DNA of 64,000 nucleotides from Sulfurovum sp. NBC37-1 (lineage in GTDB: Bacteria > Campylobacterota > Campylobacteria > Campylobacterales > Sulfurovaceae): assembly GCF_000010345.1 (NCBI RefSeq), contig NC_009663.1, positions 1,488,001 to 1,552,000 on the forward strand, given 5' to 3'. The translations under genes were made by a program, and so were the position numbers. Positions 52,977 to 61,854 of this stretch are shown here, piece by piece (the first letter of the stretch is position 1; every line of letters starts with the position of its first letter). The notes beneath the pieces are model-generated. The model searched no databases, was not told where the DNA came from, and saw only the letters and a program-made list of their open reading frames with translations.

Positions 52977-54611
52977 TCAATGCCAAAAAAGCAGCTGCAC
53001 AATATTCAGTATGAACATCGTCACGAATCCCACTTTGTATACCATCATTTCGTTCCGCTCTATAAATGAAAGGTTCTTGTCAAAATAGGGTTGTACTTTC
53101 TCAGGATTGTCGATCTCGTAGAGCATTTCCGAGTAGTTGTGGTAGCGTTTGTCCGTATCGCTCTCTACGGCACGAAGGATAACACTTTCCAGCCATTCGG
53201 GTATCTTTGCATTGTACTTTGTCGGATGCTTCGGATTCTTGTCAAAGCTTGGATTCTGAAACGGTTCTATCTCACCGAAAGGGAACTTCTGTGTCAAAGC
53301 TTCGTACAGCACCACACCGATAGCATAGACCTCCGTCTGTTCCGTAATGGGTGCCTGCAAAAAACGCTCCGGTGCCAGATAGGAAGGGGTACCTGCACGC
53401 GTTACCTTGGAATATGCTTCCGTGATACTGCCGAAATCAACTATCTTGAAAATTATTTTCTCTTTGCGTTTGGTCACAATGATGTTTTCGGGCTTGATAT
53501 CACCATGTACCAGGTTGAGCTTGATAAGGAACTGTGACATTTTCAGAAGGAAACGGGCAAGCTCCACGCCCAGGTCAACTGAAATCGGTTTTTTGGCAAT
53601 GTACTCCTTGAGCGGTATGCCTTCCACATAACTCATGATGTAATAGCGGTGGGTACGTTTTTTAGGGATCACCGCTTTGGGGAAAAAACCTGCCTTGAGA
53701 CGCTTTGCCATCCAGACTTCTTTGACAAAAAAGTCCAGTATCGTTTCATCATCCAGCGCTTCGAAAGGAGCAAACTTGATGACATACTGCACACCTTTTT
53801 TCTCACAGAGCCAGGTACGGTTGTTCTGTATCAGCGGTTTGAAGAGTCTATAGCCGTCGATCTCCTCCCCTTTTTTATACTGTTCCTGTATGATCAGTTC
53901 CGTCTGCTTAAGCTTCAGCCTGGGGTCTAGTTCTTTGATCTCGATGATCACTGCCGTGGTATCGTCAGGCAGATCATCGTTGTGTTGTTTACTCGCTTTC
54001 TTGATCAGGAAAGAAGCCCCCACTTTCAATCCGTCAGCCAACTCCTCCTGCGAGAGTTCATTGTAGAGTCCATCACTGCAGAGCAATATGCGGTCACCGA
54101 CTTGAAGGTTGTTCTCAAAATAATACGGTTCCACATGCTCTTCAAGCCCGATAGCGGAAGTGAGCACATTCTCCATTCCCTCTTCCTCCATAGCATGGTC
54201 AGAAGAGAGTTGCGCGAACTGACCGTTACGCGCCAGATAGATACGGCTGTCCCCCACATTGGCACCGTACAGTCTGTCCCCCTCAACAACTACCAGTGTG
54301 AGCGTCGTTACCAGCTCCTGACGCGCATACTGTTCCATTGATTCAAGGTACAGTACACGGTTGATATTTTCAATAAAATGGCGAATGGACTTCTCCATAC
54401 TCCAGCTGCGTGGACGGTTCTTGAGCGACTGTACCAAAAACTGTGTCGTGCGCTTAGCTGCTTCAGCACCCTGCAAGGCTGATCCTACACCGTCACAGAC
54501 CACCGCAACGGTAATATTCTCCATCACCTTCACTTCAAAGAAGTCATCCCCTTTAAGCTGTGTACCTTTGGCAAGCGTAAACCCGGAGGTCTCAATATTT
54601 TGTTTTGACAT
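52977..54611 (-). CDS. Fused PP2C phosphatase and Ser/Thr kinase
   Basis: 544 residues. The N-terminal PP2C domain (about 1-240) shows VAVVCDGVGSALQGAEAA, GANVGDSRIYL, LLCSDGL and DDTTAVI. The kinase domain (about 255-520) has the VIK lysine, HGDIKPENI (catalytic loop), VDFGS (DFG) and GTPSYLAPE. A final hydrophobic helix (VGFVTMFILNIVQLLF) puts it on the membrane. Opposing enzyme activities in one chain suggest a tunable phosphorylation switch. It is the last of three leftward genes (narK, hybrid, kinase), so nitrate uptake is the likely target or input. Confidence 0.92.
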   Translation of the reverse strand: MSKQNIETSGFTLAKGTQLKGDDFFEVKVMENITVAVVCDGVGSALQGAEAAKRTTQFLVQSLKNRPRSWSMEKSIRHFIENINRVLYLESMEQYARQELVTTLTLVVVEGDRLYGANVGDSRIYLARNGQFAQLSSDHAMEEEGMENVLTSAIGLEEHVEPYYFENNLQVGDRILLCSDGLYNELSQEELADGLKVGASFLIKKASKQHNDDLPDDTTAVIIEIKELDPRLKLKQTELIIQEQYKKGEEIDGYRLFKPLIQNNRTWLCEKKGVQYVIKFAPFEALDDETILDFFVKEVWMAKRLKAGFFPKAVIPKKRTHRYYIMSYVEGIPLKEYIAKKPISVDLGVELARFLLKMSQFLIKLNLVHGDIKPENIIVTKRKEKIIFKIVDFGSITEAYSKVTRAGTPSYLAPERFLQAPITEQTEVYAIGVVLYEALTQKFPFGEIEPFQNPSFDKNPKHPTKYNAKIPEWLESVILRAVESDTDKRYHNYSEMLYEIDNPEKVQPYFDKNLSFIERNEMMVYKVGFVTMFILNIVQLLFWH

Positions 54612-54624
54612 ATGTGCCTACCTT

Positions 54625-56622
54625 CTACTTATCCTCTTTGGTGACAAATACGACAAATCGATTAACCTCTTTTTGCAGGTTCATCCAGTTTTTCTGATAA
54701 AGCGCTGCGTACTCCATCAGGTAGATTTTTTTACTTTCTGAAAAATACTGTGTCAACTCATCCAACATCTTTACCATTTCGTTTGCATGAATATTTTTAT
54801 ACAAAGTGCTCAGTGTTCTGACATATGATTTCAGCGCATGATATTCATCATCGTAGATCATTTTTGACATTTGCTTTGTACTTCCCTTCAGGGTTTCCAT
54901 AGTTTCAAGTAGTATCTCCATATACTGCTGTTTCTCTCCTACCTCCTCCAGGCCTTTCTGCACATCCAAAACATTACGGTTGTACCCGGTATAGACACTC
55001 TGCTTTTTCTCTTTTTTCAAACTTCTCTCCTGCATGGCAGGAGTAACCTTCAGAAACCTGTCTAACGCCCGATACACCTCCTGTGCTGTAATTGGTTTGG
55101 AAATAGTCGCATTCATACCGGCAAGTACCATCGATCTGATTTCATGCTTAAACGCCATAGATGAAATCGATATAATAGGAATGTTCTTCCATTTTGGATT
55201 GGAACGTATTCTTTTCGTCATCGTCAAGCCATCGAGAAGCGGCATATTTATATCAGTAAAAATAATATCGATATCCTTCTCATCAAGCAGTTTGATCATA
55301 TCGAGCCCGTTATCGACAAAGAAAAGAGAAGCTCCTTCTGCCTTACTGAGTATGTTTCGAATGATCCGCTGATCAACTTTGCTGTCTTCCGCCACGGCAA
55401 TATGCGCGCCACTGAATCTTTTCAAATCTTCTTCCCGGACCGATCTGTTTCCATTGAGTACAAATGTCTCAGAATCAAATACCTCCATATTGTTGATCCC
55501 TTTGACTGCCTTGCTCTCAAGAATGAATATTTGGTAGAGTATCTCTTCTACATCCCCAATGATGGCAGGATTGAAGAGTTCCGCATGTGCGATCGGTTTA
55601 CTAAGAGCGATTTTATTTTCCGGTTCAAATAGTTCATGTATAACAATGATCTTAAATTCACTCTTCGGATTTTGATAGATTTTTTTGAAAAAAGCAATAT
55701 GTTTTGCAGTGAGGTCCGAGGACCGGACAATAGCCATATTGTATTTCTCAAAATCAGGTTTCTTCTTTTCAAAATCTTCGAGTTTCATGTCACTTATCTT
55801 GATACCGTAGGTCCTAAAAATGTATTGCACCCGCTTGGTATCATACTTTGTCTTCCCGATAAAAAGGGCCCGTTTCCCCTCAAGAAATTTTTTTAGTTTT
55901 TCCTGGTGACTTCTATTGTCTTTGTCCGGGATGTATGGAATTTTGAAAGTGTAGTGTGTTCCCAAGCGTTTGCTACTGCTTAGTGTAAGGGATCCCCCCA
56001 TAGCTTCAGCAATCTTCCTGGCTTTGACAAAGGTATTTATCTCCCCGCTCCTCTGATCAGAAACATTTTTGGCATCAAGATACTCCCGGCAGAGTGCTTT
56101 GGGTATGAGCCCCTTCTCATTAGTAACATCAAACACAATGAAATTCTGTTTCGATCTCGATATATTCAGAACAATCTCTGAATCAGTACTAAGTGCAATA
56201 GCACTCTGAAGAAGCGTTTCGAGTACCTGCTCAATATAATCATTGTCACCGACAATATACCTGCCCACTTTACTGTCCACATCGTAGTGAAGATGATGTC
56301 TCTGCTCTTTGAGTGTTTTGCTGATCTTGTTTGTCAGAATATGCAGCAGGCCGCTCAGCCTGAACGGCTGATTCTCTATCTTGATCTTTTTGGTCTCAAT
56401 ACGATATGCTTCAAGCAACTCCGGATTCGTACGGCTCTTCTCACTATCCTCTGCCTTTTTTGCTTTTCCGAACTGTATACGTTTTACAAAAAAAAGAAAA
56501 ACGAACAAAAGAACCAGAAGCAGAGAGAGCAGCAGATACAAAAATGTATTCCCCTCTCCTGCAGATGCATCGTTGGCAAAAAGCAGTGTACTTGATGCAG
56601 TCAAAATAAAACTTTTTTTCAT
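54625..56622 (-). CDS. Degenerate hybrid sensor protein with two receiver domains
   Basis: 665 residues. A helix (FLYLLLSLLLVLLFVFLFFV) is followed by a GHKL-type ATPase-like region (about 100-230) with KIAEAMGGSLTLSSSKRLGTHYTF, but no DHp phosphoacceptor His is seen and the N-box lacks its usual Asn. A first receiver-like segment (about 245-365) lacks the phosphorylation Asp. The second (about 400-525) is complete: AEDSKVDQ, FTDINMPLLDG, SISS and SKPI. The C-terminal 100 residues resemble an Hpt module without its His. It may be a scaffold driven by a single receiver. Lies between narK and the kinase/phosphatase gene. Confidence 0.78.
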   Translation of the reverse strand: MKKSFILTASSTLLFANDASAGEGNTFLYLLLSLLLVLLFVFLFFVKRIQFGKAKKAEDSEKSRTNPELLEAYRIETKKIKIENQPFRLSGLLHILTNKISKTLKEQRHHLHYDVDSKVGRYIVGDNDYIEQVLETLLQSAIALSTDSEIVLNISRSKQNFIVFDVTNEKGLIPKALCREYLDAKNVSDQRSGEINTFVKARKIAEAMGGSLTLSSSKRLGTHYTFKIPYIPDKDNRSHQEKLKKFLEGKRALFIGKTKYDTKRVQYIFRTYGIKISDMKLEDFEKKKPDFEKYNMAIVRSSDLTAKHIAFFKKIYQNPKSEFKIIVIHELFEPENKIALSKPIAHAELFNPAIIGDVEEILYQIFILESKAVKGINNMEVFDSETFVLNGNRSVREEDLKRFSGAHIAVAEDSKVDQRIIRNILSKAEGASLFFVDNGLDMIKLLDEKDIDIIFTDINMPLLDGLTMTKRIRSNPKWKNIPIISISSMAFKHEIRSMVLAGMNATISKPITAQEVYRALDRFLKVTPAMQERSLKKEKKQSVYTGYNRNVLDVQKGLEEVGEKQQYMEILLETMETLKGSTKQMSKMIYDDEYHALKSYVRTLSTLYKNIHANEMVKMLDELTQYFSESKKIYLMEYAALYQKNWMNLQKEVNRFVVFVTKEDK

Positions 56623-56688: not shown

Positions 56689-57969
56689 TTATATCATTCC
56701 ACCTGCATTTGCTCCCCAGGTCGTTCTCCATCTTGTTTTTACGAAGCTAAGTCCGGCAATGGCCACAAGTACGACAGCTGCAAAGATGAGAAATCCTGCC
56801 ATATAGCCGTCAAAGGCACCTTTGGACCAACCAAGCGTTTTTATGAGCGCCGTACCCCCAAGACCTCCGGCACATCCGACGATACCGGTCATAATACCGA
56901 TATCTTTGCCGAAACGCTGCGGTACGAGCTGGAAGACCGCGCCGTTTGCCATACCAAGGTTTGCCATGATGAAGAAAAGCACGGCGATCGCTGCAAAGAA
57001 CGGCAGATCGATCAATGCAAGCATAGCAGCCAGCACCGCAACCGCACCGTAAAAGAAATAAAGTGCTTTCACACCACCGATCTTGTCTGCGATATTCCCG
57101 CCGACAGGTCTGAGTACCGCACCGGCAAAGATGGTAAGGGCACCGAAATAACCGGCGATAACCTTGACGTTCGGCTCATCGAGCACATTAAGCCCGAAAG
57201 CACTCATATCTGCCTGATAAGTGTTCATCAAGTACACTTTCATATATCCCGCAAACCCTACGAAACCACCAAAAGAGATGGCATAGAAAAGGTTGAACCA
57301 CCATGTATCTTTATCACGAAGCAGTTTGAGGTAATCGGAAACCTTTTTCGGTCTTGCCTTATAGACAGACTCAGGAGCATTTTTTGCCAGGAACAGGTAG
57401 GCAATAAATACTGCAATAGCCATTATCGCACCGACACCGAACACTGATTCCCATCCCCAAAGTTCTGCGATCTTCGGAGCGAAGAGGAAGTCAAGTACCA
57501 CACCGATGTTACCCGCACCGGCAATACCCAGAACCACACCCTGAAGCTTTGGCGGATACCACTGTCCTGCCTGCGGAAGCGCCACGGCAAATGAAGCCCC
57601 TGCAAAACCCAGTCCAAGCGCAACGATCAGAAGCTGGTCGTATGTAATATCACCGCCTTTAAAATAGGCAAGCAGCAAAGAAGCGATAACGATCGCCTGG
57701 GCGATCAGGGCGGTCATTTTTGCTCCAAGTTTATCGACCCCGAAACCAAGTACGATACGCAGGATCGCCCCTGAGAGGATAGGAAGTGAAAGCAGTGTCG
57801 CCTTCTGTCCTGCTGTAATGATCTCACCATGCATCGCAAGGGCTTCCGCGATCTCCGTTGAAAGTGGTCCGAGCATCGTCCAGACCATGAAACTCATATC
57901 AAAATATAAAAAAGCCATGAACAGAGTCGGAAAGTGACCCTGTCCTTTCAGTGCTTTAAATCCAGCCAT
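56689..57969 (-). CDS. narK: Nitrate/nitrite transporter (MFS, NarK type)
   Basis: About 426 residues from ATG 57969 (AAGGAG eight bases before). Twelve hydrophobic segments. Nitrate-porter patterns are GAGNIGVVLDFLFAPKIAELWGW, FASSGAVALPQAG-like ALPQAGQWYPP and GANAGGM at the C-terminus. It brings nitrate in or exchanges nitrate and nitrite. Its own -10 box and a 20-bp palindrome lie upstream, mirrored at the divergent reductase gene. The two regulatory-looking genes follow on the same strand. Confidence 0.92.
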   Translation of the reverse strand: MAGFKALKGQGHFPTLFMAFLYFDMSFMVWTMLGPLSTEIAEALAMHGEIITAGQKATLLSLPILSGAILRIVLGFGVDKLGAKMTALIAQAIVIASLLLAYFKGGDITYDQLLIVALGLGFAGASFAVALPQAGQWYPPKLQGVVLGIAGAGNIGVVLDFLFAPKIAELWGWESVFGVGAIMAIAVFIAYLFLAKNAPESVYKARPKKVSDYLKLLRDKDTWWFNLFYAISFGGFVGFAGYMKVYLMNTYQADMSAFGLNVLDEPNVKVIAGYFGALTIFAGAVLRPVGGNIADKIGGVKALYFFYGAVAVLAAMLALIDLPFFAAIAVLFFIMANLGMANGAVFQLVPQRFGKDIGIMTGIVGCAGGLGGTALIKTLGWSKGAFDGYMAGFLIFAAVVLVAIAGLSFVKTRWRTTWGANAGGMI

Positions 57970-57997: not shown

Positions 57998-58186
57998 ATT
58001 ATACAGCGGATTACTCCAATCATTAACCACTATATTGATTAATTTTTAATCATTCATAAAATCACTGTATTGGGGCTATCCCTATAAATCATGAATAGCA
58101 TAAAATTAAATTGATTAATTTTTAATCATAGATAAGACACAAAATATTCACGGTACAGCTATAATAAAACAATTATATACAGGAGG
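57998..58186. promoter_or_regulatory. Divergent narK/reductase promoters with two identical 20-bp sites
   Basis: The 20-base sequence ATTGATTAATTTTTAATCAT occurs twice, at 58034-58053 and 58110-58129. Each contains the perfect palindrome TGATTAA-TTT-TTAATCA (58036-58052 and 58112-58128). The narK -10 (TATAAT on the minus strand) is 58003-57998, and the reductase -10 is 58160-58165. The centre of each site lies about 40 bases upstream of its own -10, which would place it near -52 of each start. AGGAGG at 58181-58186 precedes the reductase ATG. This geometry suggests a shared activator binding one site per promoter. Confidence 0.7.
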
Positions 58187-58195
58187 TCCGATCGC

Positions 58196-60115
58196 ATGGA
58201 AGTATTGCAAAAAGCACTCGAAGCCAGATCAAAAAAAGTCAACAAGGTAGAGGCTACCAAATCATTAAAGAATCCTTTGGAGGTCTATGCCAAACTTGAA
58301 GAGATCGCAGCTGCCGGGTATGAAGGCCTGGCCAAGGAAGACTCTGCCTACTTCCTGAAATGTTTCGGCCTCTTTGACAAGGGTGAGGATTTCATGCTGA
58401 GGGTGCGTATTCCTTCCGGCCAACTTACCCATGAACAGGCACTGCGGATCGGTGAAGTTGCACAAACCTATGCCAATGACTATATAGATATCTCCACGCG
58501 TATGCAGGTCGTATTGCGCTATATTCAGATAGAGAACATTGCCAAAGTACTTCATGCACTCAAAGAGGTGGGGCTTAGCACATTTCAGACAGGTGCGGAC
58601 AATACACGAAATACTGTTTCTGACCCTCTTGACGGGCTTGCTTACGATAATATCATTGAAACCAAACCCATTGTAGACAGACTCGAAAAGCAATTTATAG
58701 AAAATCCTGAATGGATCTCCACCCTGCCCCGTAAGTTCAATACCGGGATACTCGGTTCACTCTCCAATTCCTGTAATATCTTCGGGCATGACTGCTGTTT
58801 TGTCCTTGCCCAAAAAGAGGGACGGTTCGGCTTTAATGTCTATTTGGGAGCCAGGGTCGGTGTACAGGCGAAAGATGCCGATCTATTCGTTACCGCAGAT
58901 GAAGTTCCCGAATTTTACACGGCTCTGCTGAGTGTATTTAAAAGATACGGCTACCGCGACAACCGGAACAAGAACCGCCTGCACTTCCTCCTGAGTGACG
59001 TGGGTGTCCCTGCCTTCATAGAGGCAGTGAAAGAGGAAGCAGGCAAAAATTATGCCGAGGCCGGCGTGACTATGGTACAGTCCCAGAACATTGCCATGGG
59101 CTCCAACAAAATACTGCTCAAAGACAATACCTATGCCTACAAGGTCATTGTGCCTTCCGGTATCTTCAGTGGTACCGATATGATCGAAGCAGCCAAAAGT
59201 GCGCAAACTTACGGAAGTGGACACCTGCGGCTTAGCTATGACCAGAACCTCTTTCTTGTCAACATACCGCAGGAGGAACTGACCGGGCTTGAAGCGAGTC
59301 CGCTCGTTGCAAAATATGCAGCATTCAACAACCTCTATTTTCAGGATATGATCGCCTGTGCCGGTACCCATACCTGCAGCTTCGGCGTCATCCCCAACAA
59401 ACCCGACGCTATAGAGATGGCACACTTCCTCAACTCTGAAGTGTCCATCACAAATGCACAGGTACGCATGAACTGGTCAGCCTGCCCCAAAGGCTGCGGC
59501 ATACACGGCATCGCCGATATCGGATTTGAAGGATGCAAGGCCAAAGATGAAGAGGGAAACAGAGTTGACGGTGTGCACATCTTCATAGGCGGGAAGATTA
59601 CCCGCAGGGCGAAAGAGGCTCATGTCCTGCATAAATCACTTCCGATCACAGAAGCGAAACATCATGTAAAGTATCTGCTCAAAATATACGCCGACTACAA
59701 AGAACGCAGCGAAACCTTCGAAGCGTTCGAGACACGTTTTTTCAGCCATAATTACAGCTATCAGGCGATCTCATTCTTTACCAAGATCAACTACGTCCTT
59801 CGTGAGAAGCTCGGCCTGGATGTGATGTTCGAACTTGAAAAAGAGCCGGCAAGTGGCAGAAAAGAGGAGTATGAGCTCTTCACTTTCGGCCTGAAACTCT
59901 TCAAGCTCCTTACCGGAGAGAAGCGTTTTGAAGCGGTTGACGGACTTTCACCAACCCTGGCACGCCCGAGAAAGATCAAACGTGACGAAGTCAGCAGACT
60001 CAATCCGGCGGTCCCACCTAAACTCTCTGAAGTCATCTACAACATGACGCATGAGAACAAAAGTGAACGTGCGCAGGTATTCTCGGAACTGCTTGTAGCA
60101 TTGAAGGAGGTATAA
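58196..60115 (+). CDS. nirA: Siroheme nitrite/sulfite reductase (assimilatory)
   Basis: 639 residues with two ferredoxin-like half-domains and two siroheme-binding halves. Motifs: DISTRMQVVLRYIQIENI, NSCNIFGHD, and the 4Fe-4S/siroheme cysteines in CAGTHTCSFGV (C-x5-C) and CPKGCG (C-x3-C) near 390-430. It reduces nitrite to ammonia or sulfite to sulfide with six electrons. The divergent nitrate transporter favours the nitrite role. A strong AGGAGG precedes ATG 58196. Slightly longer than minimal NirA proteins, with about 100 extra C-terminal residues. Confidence 0.92.
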   Translation: MEVLQKALEARSKKVNKVEATKSLKNPLEVYAKLEEIAAAGYEGLAKEDSAYFLKCFGLFDKGEDFMLRVRIPSGQLTHEQALRIGEVAQTYANDYIDISTRMQVVLRYIQIENIAKVLHALKEVGLSTFQTGADNTRNTVSDPLDGLAYDNIIETKPIVDRLEKQFIENPEWISTLPRKFNTGILGSLSNSCNIFGHDCCFVLAQKEGRFGFNVYLGARVGVQAKDADLFVTADEVPEFYTALLSVFKRYGYRDNRNKNRLHFLLSDVGVPAFIEAVKEEAGKNYAEAGVTMVQSQNIAMGSNKILLKDNTYAYKVIVPSGIFSGTDMIEAAKSAQTYGSGHLRLSYDQNLFLVNIPQEELTGLEASPLVAKYAAFNNLYFQDMIACAGTHTCSFGVIPNKPDAIEMAHFLNSEVSITNAQVRMNWSACPKGCGIHGIADIGFEGCKAKDEEGNRVDGVHIFIGGKITRRAKEAHVLHKSLPITEAKHHVKYLLKIYADYKERSETFEAFETRFFSHNYSYQAISFFTKINYVLREKLGLDVMFELEKEPASGRKEEYELFTFGLKLFKLLTGEKRFEAVDGLSPTLARPRKIKRDEVSRLNPAVPPKLSEVIYNMTHENKSERAQVFSELLVALKEV

Positions 60116-60148: not shown

Positions 60149-60223
60149 GTAGGGTGTTGTACCCTCACAACACCAATACTCTGCACCTACACAAAAGGTG
60201 TTGTCAGGGGACAACACCCTACG
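60149..60223. repeat. Palindromic intergenic repeat, copy 3 (inverted halves)
   Basis: A 75-base unit: GTAGGGTGTTGTACCC at the left is inverted at the right as GGGGACAACACCCTACG. Each half also pairs with itself (GGTGTTGT/ACAACACC). It separates the reductase gene from the ferredoxin/anchor gene. Same family as 35555 and 52905. Confidence 0.8.
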
Positions 60224-60246
60224 AAAAAAACAGCAAGAGAAATATA

Positions 60247-61854
60247 ATGGCAGCAGAACCCTTAACAAAACACACACCATTGGAAAGCTTCATCAACCAC
60301 AAGAACGAGACCGGTATGCAGTGCGGAAATTACTCCATTGACATTCCTGACCTCAAACCCGGAGAACAGTACCGCTTTCACTTCGATGCCACTGCCTGTG
60401 TAGGTTGTCACTGCTGTGAAGTGGCCTGCAACGAACAAAATGCCAATCCTGATGAGATCAAGTGGAGACGTGTTGGAGAAATGGAGATGGGGGCATTCCC
60501 CGATACCCTGCAGCTTTTCAACTCCATGAGCTGTAACCACTGCATCGATCCTGAATGTCTGCGCGGCTGTCCGACAGAGAGCTACATCAAACTCGATAAC
60601 GGGATCGTCTGGCACGATGACCCTTCGTGCATCGGCTGTCAGTACTGTACCTGGAACTGCCCGTACGAAGTACCTGTCTTCAACCCTGACCGGGGTATCG
60701 TAACCAAATGCCATATGTGCGTGGACAAACTCGAAGCCGGTCAGACCCCTGCCTGTGTGCAGGCCTGCCCGGGCGGTGCCATCGAAATAGAAGCAGTGAA
60801 TGTGGAACAGTGGGTTGCTGAAGATATGGCCAAAGAAGGAGTGGCTCCCCACCTGCCGAACATAGATATTACCAAACCTACCACACGATACACACTGCCT
60901 GAAATCCCCGAGGGCGAAGAGATACGCCCGGCAGACGAACATCTCCTGCACCCGGCACATCCTGAACTGCCGCTTGTTTTCATGACGGTACTCACACAGG
61001 TTTCGGTAGGTGCTTTTTTGGCGCTTTTTTTGGGACAGATGCTCTTTACCTTGGGATTCAATCTGCCAAAGCCCAATCTGGCAATGGCGATCCTGGTATT
61101 TTTACCGGCAGCCATCGGCCTGCCCCTTTCTGCCCTGCACCTGGGACGTCCTGCCAAAGCGATGTCCGCCATGAAGAACTGGAAGACTTCCTGGCTTTCA
61201 CGCGAAGCTATTGCCCTGGGAGCCTATACCGGCCTGGCAACCATGGTAGCGGGATTGTACTTTTTGGAGATCAAAGGCTTCCTGCTGCTTCTCGTTGAAG
61301 CGATTACTTTAGCCATAGGCCTTTTCGGTATTTATGCACAGTCGATGATCTACCGTATCAAAGCACGCCCGAGCTGGAACAGGAAGTCCACTACCAAAAG
61401 GTTCTTTGGTTCCGGCTATGTCGGCTTTCTCCTCATTGCGATGGTACTGCTCATCTCCAACGGTGCACAGGGGGCCATGGTACTGCTTGCCATTACGCTG
61501 CTTGCCGGAATGGGGCAGGCACTGGTCATTCTCGAAGAAGTTATGTTTTACCGACATTTGGACAAGGGAGATGAACTTTACTACCAGTACAATAGAACCA
61601 GAACCCTCCTTCAGGAACATTTTGGCAAGGTAAAGAAATTCAGAATCTACTCACTTGCTGTCTTTGCCCTGGCACTGCCACTGCTTGCTATTACGTTCAC
61701 AGCCAGCGGATTGGTCAGCTTGGCGATCGCAACATTGGCTATAGCGACCATAGGTGCATTGCTGAGTGAACTTGCAGGACGCTACCTTTTCTACCGTACC
61801 ATAGTGCCGTTGGGACTGGCAGGGAACTTCTTTGCGGGGAATCAACGCCATTAG
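60247..61854 (+). CDS. Fused four-cluster ferredoxin and DmsC-type membrane anchor
   Basis: About 535 residues from ATG 60247. The N-terminal part (about 40-200) holds four 4Fe-4S sets: CVGCHCCEVAC, CNHCIDPECLRGC, CIGCQYCTWNC and CHMCVDKLEAGQTPACVQAC, as in DmsB/NrfC. After a linker, about eight hydrophobic helices (about 240-530) match the DmsC anchor (LSALHLGRPAKAMSAMKNWKTSWLSREAIALG). It is therefore a quinol-linked electron-transfer unit in one chain. Its molybdenum catalytic subunit is not next to it. The position after the reductase suggests a link to nitrate reduction. Confidence 0.9.
   Translation: MAAEPLTKHTPLESFINHKNETGMQCGNYSIDIPDLKPGEQYRFHFDATACVGCHCCEVACNEQNANPDEIKWRRVGEMEMGAFPDTLQLFNSMSCNHCIDPECLRGCPTESYIKLDNGIVWHDDPSCIGCQYCTWNCPYEVPVFNPDRGIVTKCHMCVDKLEAGQTPACVQACPGGAIEIEAVNVEQWVAEDMAKEGVAPHLPNIDITKPTTRYTLPEIPEGEEIRPADEHLLHPAHPELPLVFMTVLTQVSVGAFLALFLGQMLFTLGFNLPKPNLAMAILVFLPAAIGLPLSALHLGRPAKAMSAMKNWKTSWLSREAIALGAYTGLATMVAGLYFLEIKGFLLLLVEAITLAIGLFGIYAQSMIYRIKARPSWNRKSTTKRFFGSGYVGFLLIAMVLLISNGAQGAMVLLAITLLAGMGQALVILEEVMFYRHLDKGDELYYQYNRTRTLLQEHFGKVKKFRIYSLAVFALALPLLAITFTASGLVSLAIATLAIATIGALLSELAGRYLFYRTIVPLGLAGNFFAGNQRH

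Follow-up and report, generated by a model that had tools for sequence, protein, structure and literature searches.

Conserved palindromes between narK and nirA of Sulfurovum sp. NBC37-1 as probable operators and a reduced NtrC-like protein as their candidate regulator

Introduction

The NtrC box of enterobacteria has the sequence TGCACCAnnnTGGTGCA (PMC8743547). The NtrC proteins of Rhodobacter capsulatus and Caulobacter have no GAFTGA motif and act with sigma-70; the motif derived from ChIP data for Caulobacter NtrC was reported to be related to the motifs of both Fis and NtrC (PMC10274813). Contact with sigma-54 has also been lost in other relatives of the enhancer-binding proteins, namely TyrR, HupR, DhaR, and VpsR (PMC3162934). 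For Fis itself, a 15-bp core is described, with G/C at its edges, a Y-R step at positions 3–4, and an A/T centre (PMC4784862).

Sulfurovum is a major group of hydrothermal vents and sulfidic sediments. The literature searched, which left most subscription journals outside, contained no description of the Sulfurovum nitrogen-control system analyzed here or of its candidate regulator, nor of nitrogen-uptake control without NtrC and sigma-54 in this genus. The analysis started from a window of 64,000 bp of the genome of Sulfurovum sp. NBC37-1 (contig NC_009663.1, positions 1,488,001–1,552,000), whose divergent narK and nirA genes are separated by two identical palindromes. Positions without a locus label refer to this window.

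Palindromes of the narK–nirA Intergenic Region

The gene on the minus strand encoded a narK-type nitrate/nitrite transporter of the MFS type (426 aa; 56689–57969; NCBIfam TIGR00886, E 4e-67, below the curated cut-off). The gene on the plus strand encoded a nirA-type ferredoxin–nitrite reductase with a C-terminal extension (639 aa; 58196–60115), which matched NCBIfam NF007125 (E 2.4e-104, below the curated cut-off) and contained the Pfam NIR_SIR domains. It was directly followed by an ORF for a DmsB-like 4Fe-4S protein fused to a DmsC-like membrane anchor (60154–61854, plus strand), a probable downstream member of the nirA operon, the true start of which lies probably some codons inside the ORF. 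The same gene order was found in one relative (L215), and no gene for a molybdenum catalytic subunit was present beside the fusion among the listed ORFs. Near narK, positions 52977–56622 encoded a fusion of a PP2C phosphatase with a Ser/Thr kinase, adjoining a hybrid histidine kinase.

The 20-mer ATTGATTAATTTTTAATCAT occurred twice on the plus strand, at 58034–58053 and 58110–58129, with a spacing of 76 bp. Each copy enclosed the same palindrome, TGATTAA-TTT-TTAATCA: site 1 on the narK side (58036–58052, centre 58044) and site 2 on the nirA side (58112–58128, centre 58120), both unstranded and both kept in relatives. The −10 hexamers TATAAT of narK (57998–58003, minus strand) and nirA (58160–58165, plus strand), whose positions are likewise kept in relatives, were centred 43.5 and 42.5 bp from the centres of sites 1 and 2, respectively; the distance from the palindrome centre to the near edge of its own −10 was 41 bp for narK and 40 bp for nirA. 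These coordinates confirm a preliminary description of this DNA, according to which one 20-bp sequence is present twice, 76 bp apart, with each centre 40–41 bp from its own −10.

The intergenic DNA is 73% AT, a composition in which AT-rich palindromes might arise by chance, and two identical copies might also reflect a recent duplication. The likelihood of such an origin is practically negligible: about 2e-5 sites are expected from the intergenic composition, and both sites were kept in relatives while their flanks diverged, so that conservation refutes this explanation. Under a dinucleotide model, the exact palindrome was expected approximately 0.001 times in the window and observed twice, and TGATTAA-n3-TTAATCA was expected approximately 0.04 times in the genome and observed four times. 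With three mismatches allowed, five matches were found in the window versus 6.4 expected. Counts at two to three mismatches were at chance level in both the window and the genome; weak sites were therefore left out of the evidence, and only the exact or near-exact palindrome is informative.

The TTGAT and ATCA parts of the sites look similar to the half-sites of FNR, which has narK among its targets in enterobacteria, and some related sites were located at heme-copper oxidase genes. Even so, it is very improbable that the sites are read by a regulator of the FNR/CRP type sensing oxygen, nitrate, or NO. The half-sites TTGAT/ATCAT at 58035–58053 are 9 bp apart rather than the 4 bp of FNR sites; separate true sites of the TTGAT-n4-ATCAA form exist in the NBC37-1 genome (L007:4124); and the regulon includes amtB, glnK, and glnA. 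The earlier remark that the spacing is unlike that of FNR sites was thus borne out, and readings of both the FNR/CRP and the NsrR type were dropped on spacing.

Occurrence and Conservation of the Palindrome

A search of the 2,562,277-bp genome, consisting of pattern matching only, revealed a third exact site upstream of amtB (L006:5670-5686) and a fourth between pgsA and the gene of an OprD-type porin (L005:3601-3617). Sites with one mismatch were found between glnK and the second amtB (two sites, L006:7706 and 7759) and near a heme-copper oxidase-type operon (one site, L007:4090). The porin gene (L005:2305-3617), located downstream of pgsA, had the operator in many Sulfurovum genomes, which suggests that it encodes an outer-membrane channel for nitrogen compounds. 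The divergent region between the pentaheme cytochrome gene and the cox-type operon (L007:4020-4140; G000:C1:289519-289639) contained near-matches to the palindrome together with a perfect FNR-type site, TTGATTTAAATCAA; the exact palindrome was present at the corresponding region in relatives (loci L186, L198, L211, and L221).

Exact TGATTAA-WWW-TTAATCA was found in 39 of 41 Sulfurovum genomes, with 1–6 copies in each, while the reversed pattern and the permuted palindrome, used as controls, gave none. The comparison within the family covered 89 regions upstream of nirA, amtB, or the regulator gene described below. The exact palindrome was present in 31 of them, and exact matches to the other 139 half-site permutations were found in none; when one mismatch was tolerated, the count was 46 for the palindrome versus at most 2 for permuted half-sites. 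These regions share descent, and the permutation controls carry the same relatedness.

In relatives, the narK–nirA loci had retained the two sites and the two −10 hexamers while the DNA between them diverged, and the site-to-site distance was 76–79 bp in most of the loci. Across the genus, exact sites were associated with narK, nirA, amtB, glnK-amtB2, the porin gene after pgsA, the gene of a 244-aa regulator, glnA (in two genomes), an NrtA-like gene (NMT1_2; in one genome), and cox-type genes. Both comparisons proposed in the preliminary description, at orthologous promoters and at other nitrogen genes and relatives, came out in favor of the palindrome: the pair was retained in most Sulfurovum narK–nirA loci, and the palindrome preceded amtB, glnK-amtB, glnA, and the NrtA-like gene. 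In some relatives, the half-site before amtB was TGCCTA, nearer to the NtrC half-site. Judged by this comparison of genomes, the two palindromes are conserved sites of a shared regulon of nitrogen uptake and nitrogen assimilation in Sulfurovum.

Promoter Architecture and Probable Sign of Regulation

Of 86 promoters (narK, nirA, amtB, porin, glnA, and nrtA-like), 76 had a TAnnnT hexamer at a distance of 42.5 or 43.5 bp from the centre of the site, against a background of approximately 4 per other position. Most amtB promoters had an extended −10 (TGn). No conserved −35 was seen at the narK, nirA, and amtB promoters of the relatives compared, and the 43-bp spacing to −10 was not seen at the amtB2 and cox-type targets. 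With the −10 hexamer assigned to positions −12 through −7, the centre of the site would fall at approximately −52 or −53 relative to the transcription start. The activator-type geometry claimed in the preliminary description is supported by the retention of the 42.5/43.5-bp distances at both promoters while the DNA between diverges, and by their recurrence at the other promoters named above.

The gene of the 244-aa regulator showed another arrangement. In relatives, its own site either overlapped a TATGAT hexamer or lay approximately 26 bp downstream of TATAAT; such sites were present in 16 of 29 relatives with up to two mismatches allowed, and none was found in the upstream region of the NBC37-1 gene. 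A site overlapping or following the −10 suggests autorepression by the 244-aa protein. This position would also be compatible with a factor that acts mainly as a repressor at narK and nirA under nitrogen excess. We consider such a role quite unlikely, since at narK, nirA, and amtB the site approximately 52 bp upstream of the predicted start, the strict −10 spacing, and the lack of a conserved −35 agree with activation.

Candidate Regulatory Gene and Its Neighborhood

The candidate regulator, a 244-aa protein with a Fis-type HTH, was encoded at G000:C1:1694235-1694966, approximately 148 kb from narK–nirA and directly upstream of a gene for an NtrB-like protein, with which it forms an operon and which was followed by amtB-glnK-amtB. 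It was present in 90 of 100 genomes of the family. Its C-terminal HTH matched PF02954 above the Pfam cut-off, the only Fis-type HTH in the genome to do so, and aligned with the C-terminus of the NtrC profile (positions 393–462). The recognition segment, NRNTLRKK, was nearly invariant in relatives.

Neither Pfam nor NCBIfam gave a match to a receiver domain, and the sequence begins directly with an AAA-like part. The AlphaFold model (pLDDT 89.2, pTM 0.71) matched the AAA+ folds of NtrX, NtrC1, NtrC4, and PspF, with residues 44–101 (58 residues) in the place of 112 residues of NtrC1. GAFTGA was absent from all aligned rows (33 + 24, 57 in total). A Walker A-like G-x4-GK was found in 32 of 33 rows and a DE of the Walker B type in only 2 of 33. 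As far as sequence and model can tell, the protein is a reduced NtrC, which retained the Fis-type HTH and a remnant AAA+ and lost the receiver and the GAFTGA loop.

A paralogue, 33–38% identical to the regulator, was encoded between slyD and fabD in the tol-pal-slyD-fabD locus of Sulfurimonas, Sulfuricurvum, and Sulfurospirillum (L104–L122). These genes had no detected NtrB-like or amtB neighbors, and the palindrome was absent except for one unrelated-looking site in L104. They were set aside as a separate paralogue group.

The NtrB-like protein (233 aa; L006:4951-5652, G000:C1:1694950-1695651) is encoded by a gene that overlaps the regulator gene and precedes amtB; the two genes were kept together in most of the family. 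Its model consisted of a PAS domain directly followed by a HATPase-like domain, and the catalytic domain of NtrB (1r62) was among the structure matches (TM 0.66 by target length). We failed to find a two-helix DHp/His segment in this model, and a partner of this kind is predicted to be incapable of conventional phosphotransfer. RpoN had no match in the NBC37-1 genome or in 38 of the 41 genomes of the genus, in a search that matched the Escherichia coli and Bacillus controls. Seven genome matches to Sigma54_activat (PF00158) were not taken as evidence of sigma-54 activators: the same search matched all 14 controls, archaea included.

The exact site was found in 41 of the 90 family genomes having the 244-aa protein. 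Co-occurrence was imperfect: genome G108 has the protein without an exact site, and in G104, G032, and G039 the site is present with the protein undetected, the G104 assembly being incomplete. Outside the genus, exact sites thin out, and many genomes have the protein without them. The family-wide co-occurrence of protein and site is thus suggestive but weak.

These few genomes with a site and no detected protein would fit an operator of the nitrogen regulon that is read by another transcription factor, the 244-aa protein being merely one of its targets; binding by the latter is what we infer. An OmpR-type regulator gene is indeed located near the amtB cluster in NBC37-1 (L006:2408-3100). In relatives, this gene was not detected next to the sites, and OmpR-type regulators usually bind direct repeats. 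With the 244-aa protein as the sole Fis-type HTH above the cut-off and a site of Fis/NtrC architecture, we regard another reader as unlikely. The preliminary description had suggested that the regulator could be new; this agrees with our data, the best candidate being the reduced NtrC-like protein, for which no paper was found in the literature searched.

Proposed Model of Nitrogen Control

The palindromes most probably serve a nitrogen regulon as operators to which the 244-aa protein would bind as a dimer, with activation of sigma-70 promoters at narK and nirA and repression of the protein's own gene. In this model, a dimer of the Fis-type HTH protein would occupy each palindrome. At narK and nirA, its centre would be placed approximately 52–53 bp upstream of the predicted start, one helical turn upstream of the class II position, and it would recruit sigma-70 RNA polymerase, probably via the alpha subunit, at promoters with a good −10 and without a conserved −35. 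Upstream of the regulator gene itself, the dimer would bind the site overlapping or following the −10, which would probably result in self-repression. The signal is probably nitrogen status, relayed by GlnK and the NtrB-like partner; protein contacts are proposed for this relay because the phospho-acceptor parts and sigma-54 are both missing.

It is quite possible, though we would not call it probable, that an entire nitrogen circuit was built in this way from remnants of NtrB and NtrC, in which, with neither a phosphorelay nor sigma-54, the PII/GlnK status would reach sigma-70 promoters by contacts alone and one factor would both activate the uptake genes and repress its own. Operator, promoter layout, targets, and candidate regulator together provide a complete and falsifiable nitrogen-control circuit.

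Relation to Described Regulators

With the Fis protein, the candidate regulator shares the HTH family, and the 15-bp core of the Sulfurovum operator, GATTAATTTTTAATC, follows the Fis rules (G/C edges, Y-R at 3–4, A/T centre, T/A at 8). Unlike Fis, a small global nucleoid protein, the candidate has an AAA remnant, and its operators are rare and sequence-strict.

The resemblance to the enterobacterial NtrC box comprises a 17-bp inverted repeat with a 3-bp centre, G at ±7, and A/T at ±2; the targets glnA and glnK-amtB and the adjoining NtrB-like and PII genes are also common to both systems. Compared with TGCACCA-n3-TGGTGCA, the Sulfurovum half-site TGATTAA has the same spacing and the same T, G, and A positions and differs in the middle bases. 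Unlike enterobacterial NtrC, the Sulfurovum system has neither a phospho-receiver nor sigma-54, and in place of an enhancer it has one site with constant spacing to the −10.

Like TyrR, HupR, DhaR, and VpsR, the 244-aa protein would descend from enhancer-binding proteins, lacks a working GAFTGA, and would serve sigma-70 promoters; those proteins, unlike the Sulfurovum one, retain larger sensor or receiver parts, and their signals, targets, and operators differ.

The NtrC proteins of R. capsulatus and Caulobacter have in common with the Sulfurovum protein the absence of the sigma-54 contact loop, the Fis-type HTH, a motif related to those of Fis and NtrC, and targets of the glnA and glnK type. 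The Sulfurovum protein differs from them in having no receiver and a much shorter AAA+; its kinase-like partner lacks the DHp/His part, the genome lacks RpoN, and the operator is AT-rich. The protein fits the GAFTGA-less sigma-70 type of NtrC at the level of sequence only, by the absence of GAFTGA and the fixed −10 spacing, and the Sulfurovum system can be assigned to this kind of NtrC with that qualification. It would exemplify how an enhancer-binding protein can turn into an ordinary sigma-70 regulator with its regulon and binding-site geometry retained.
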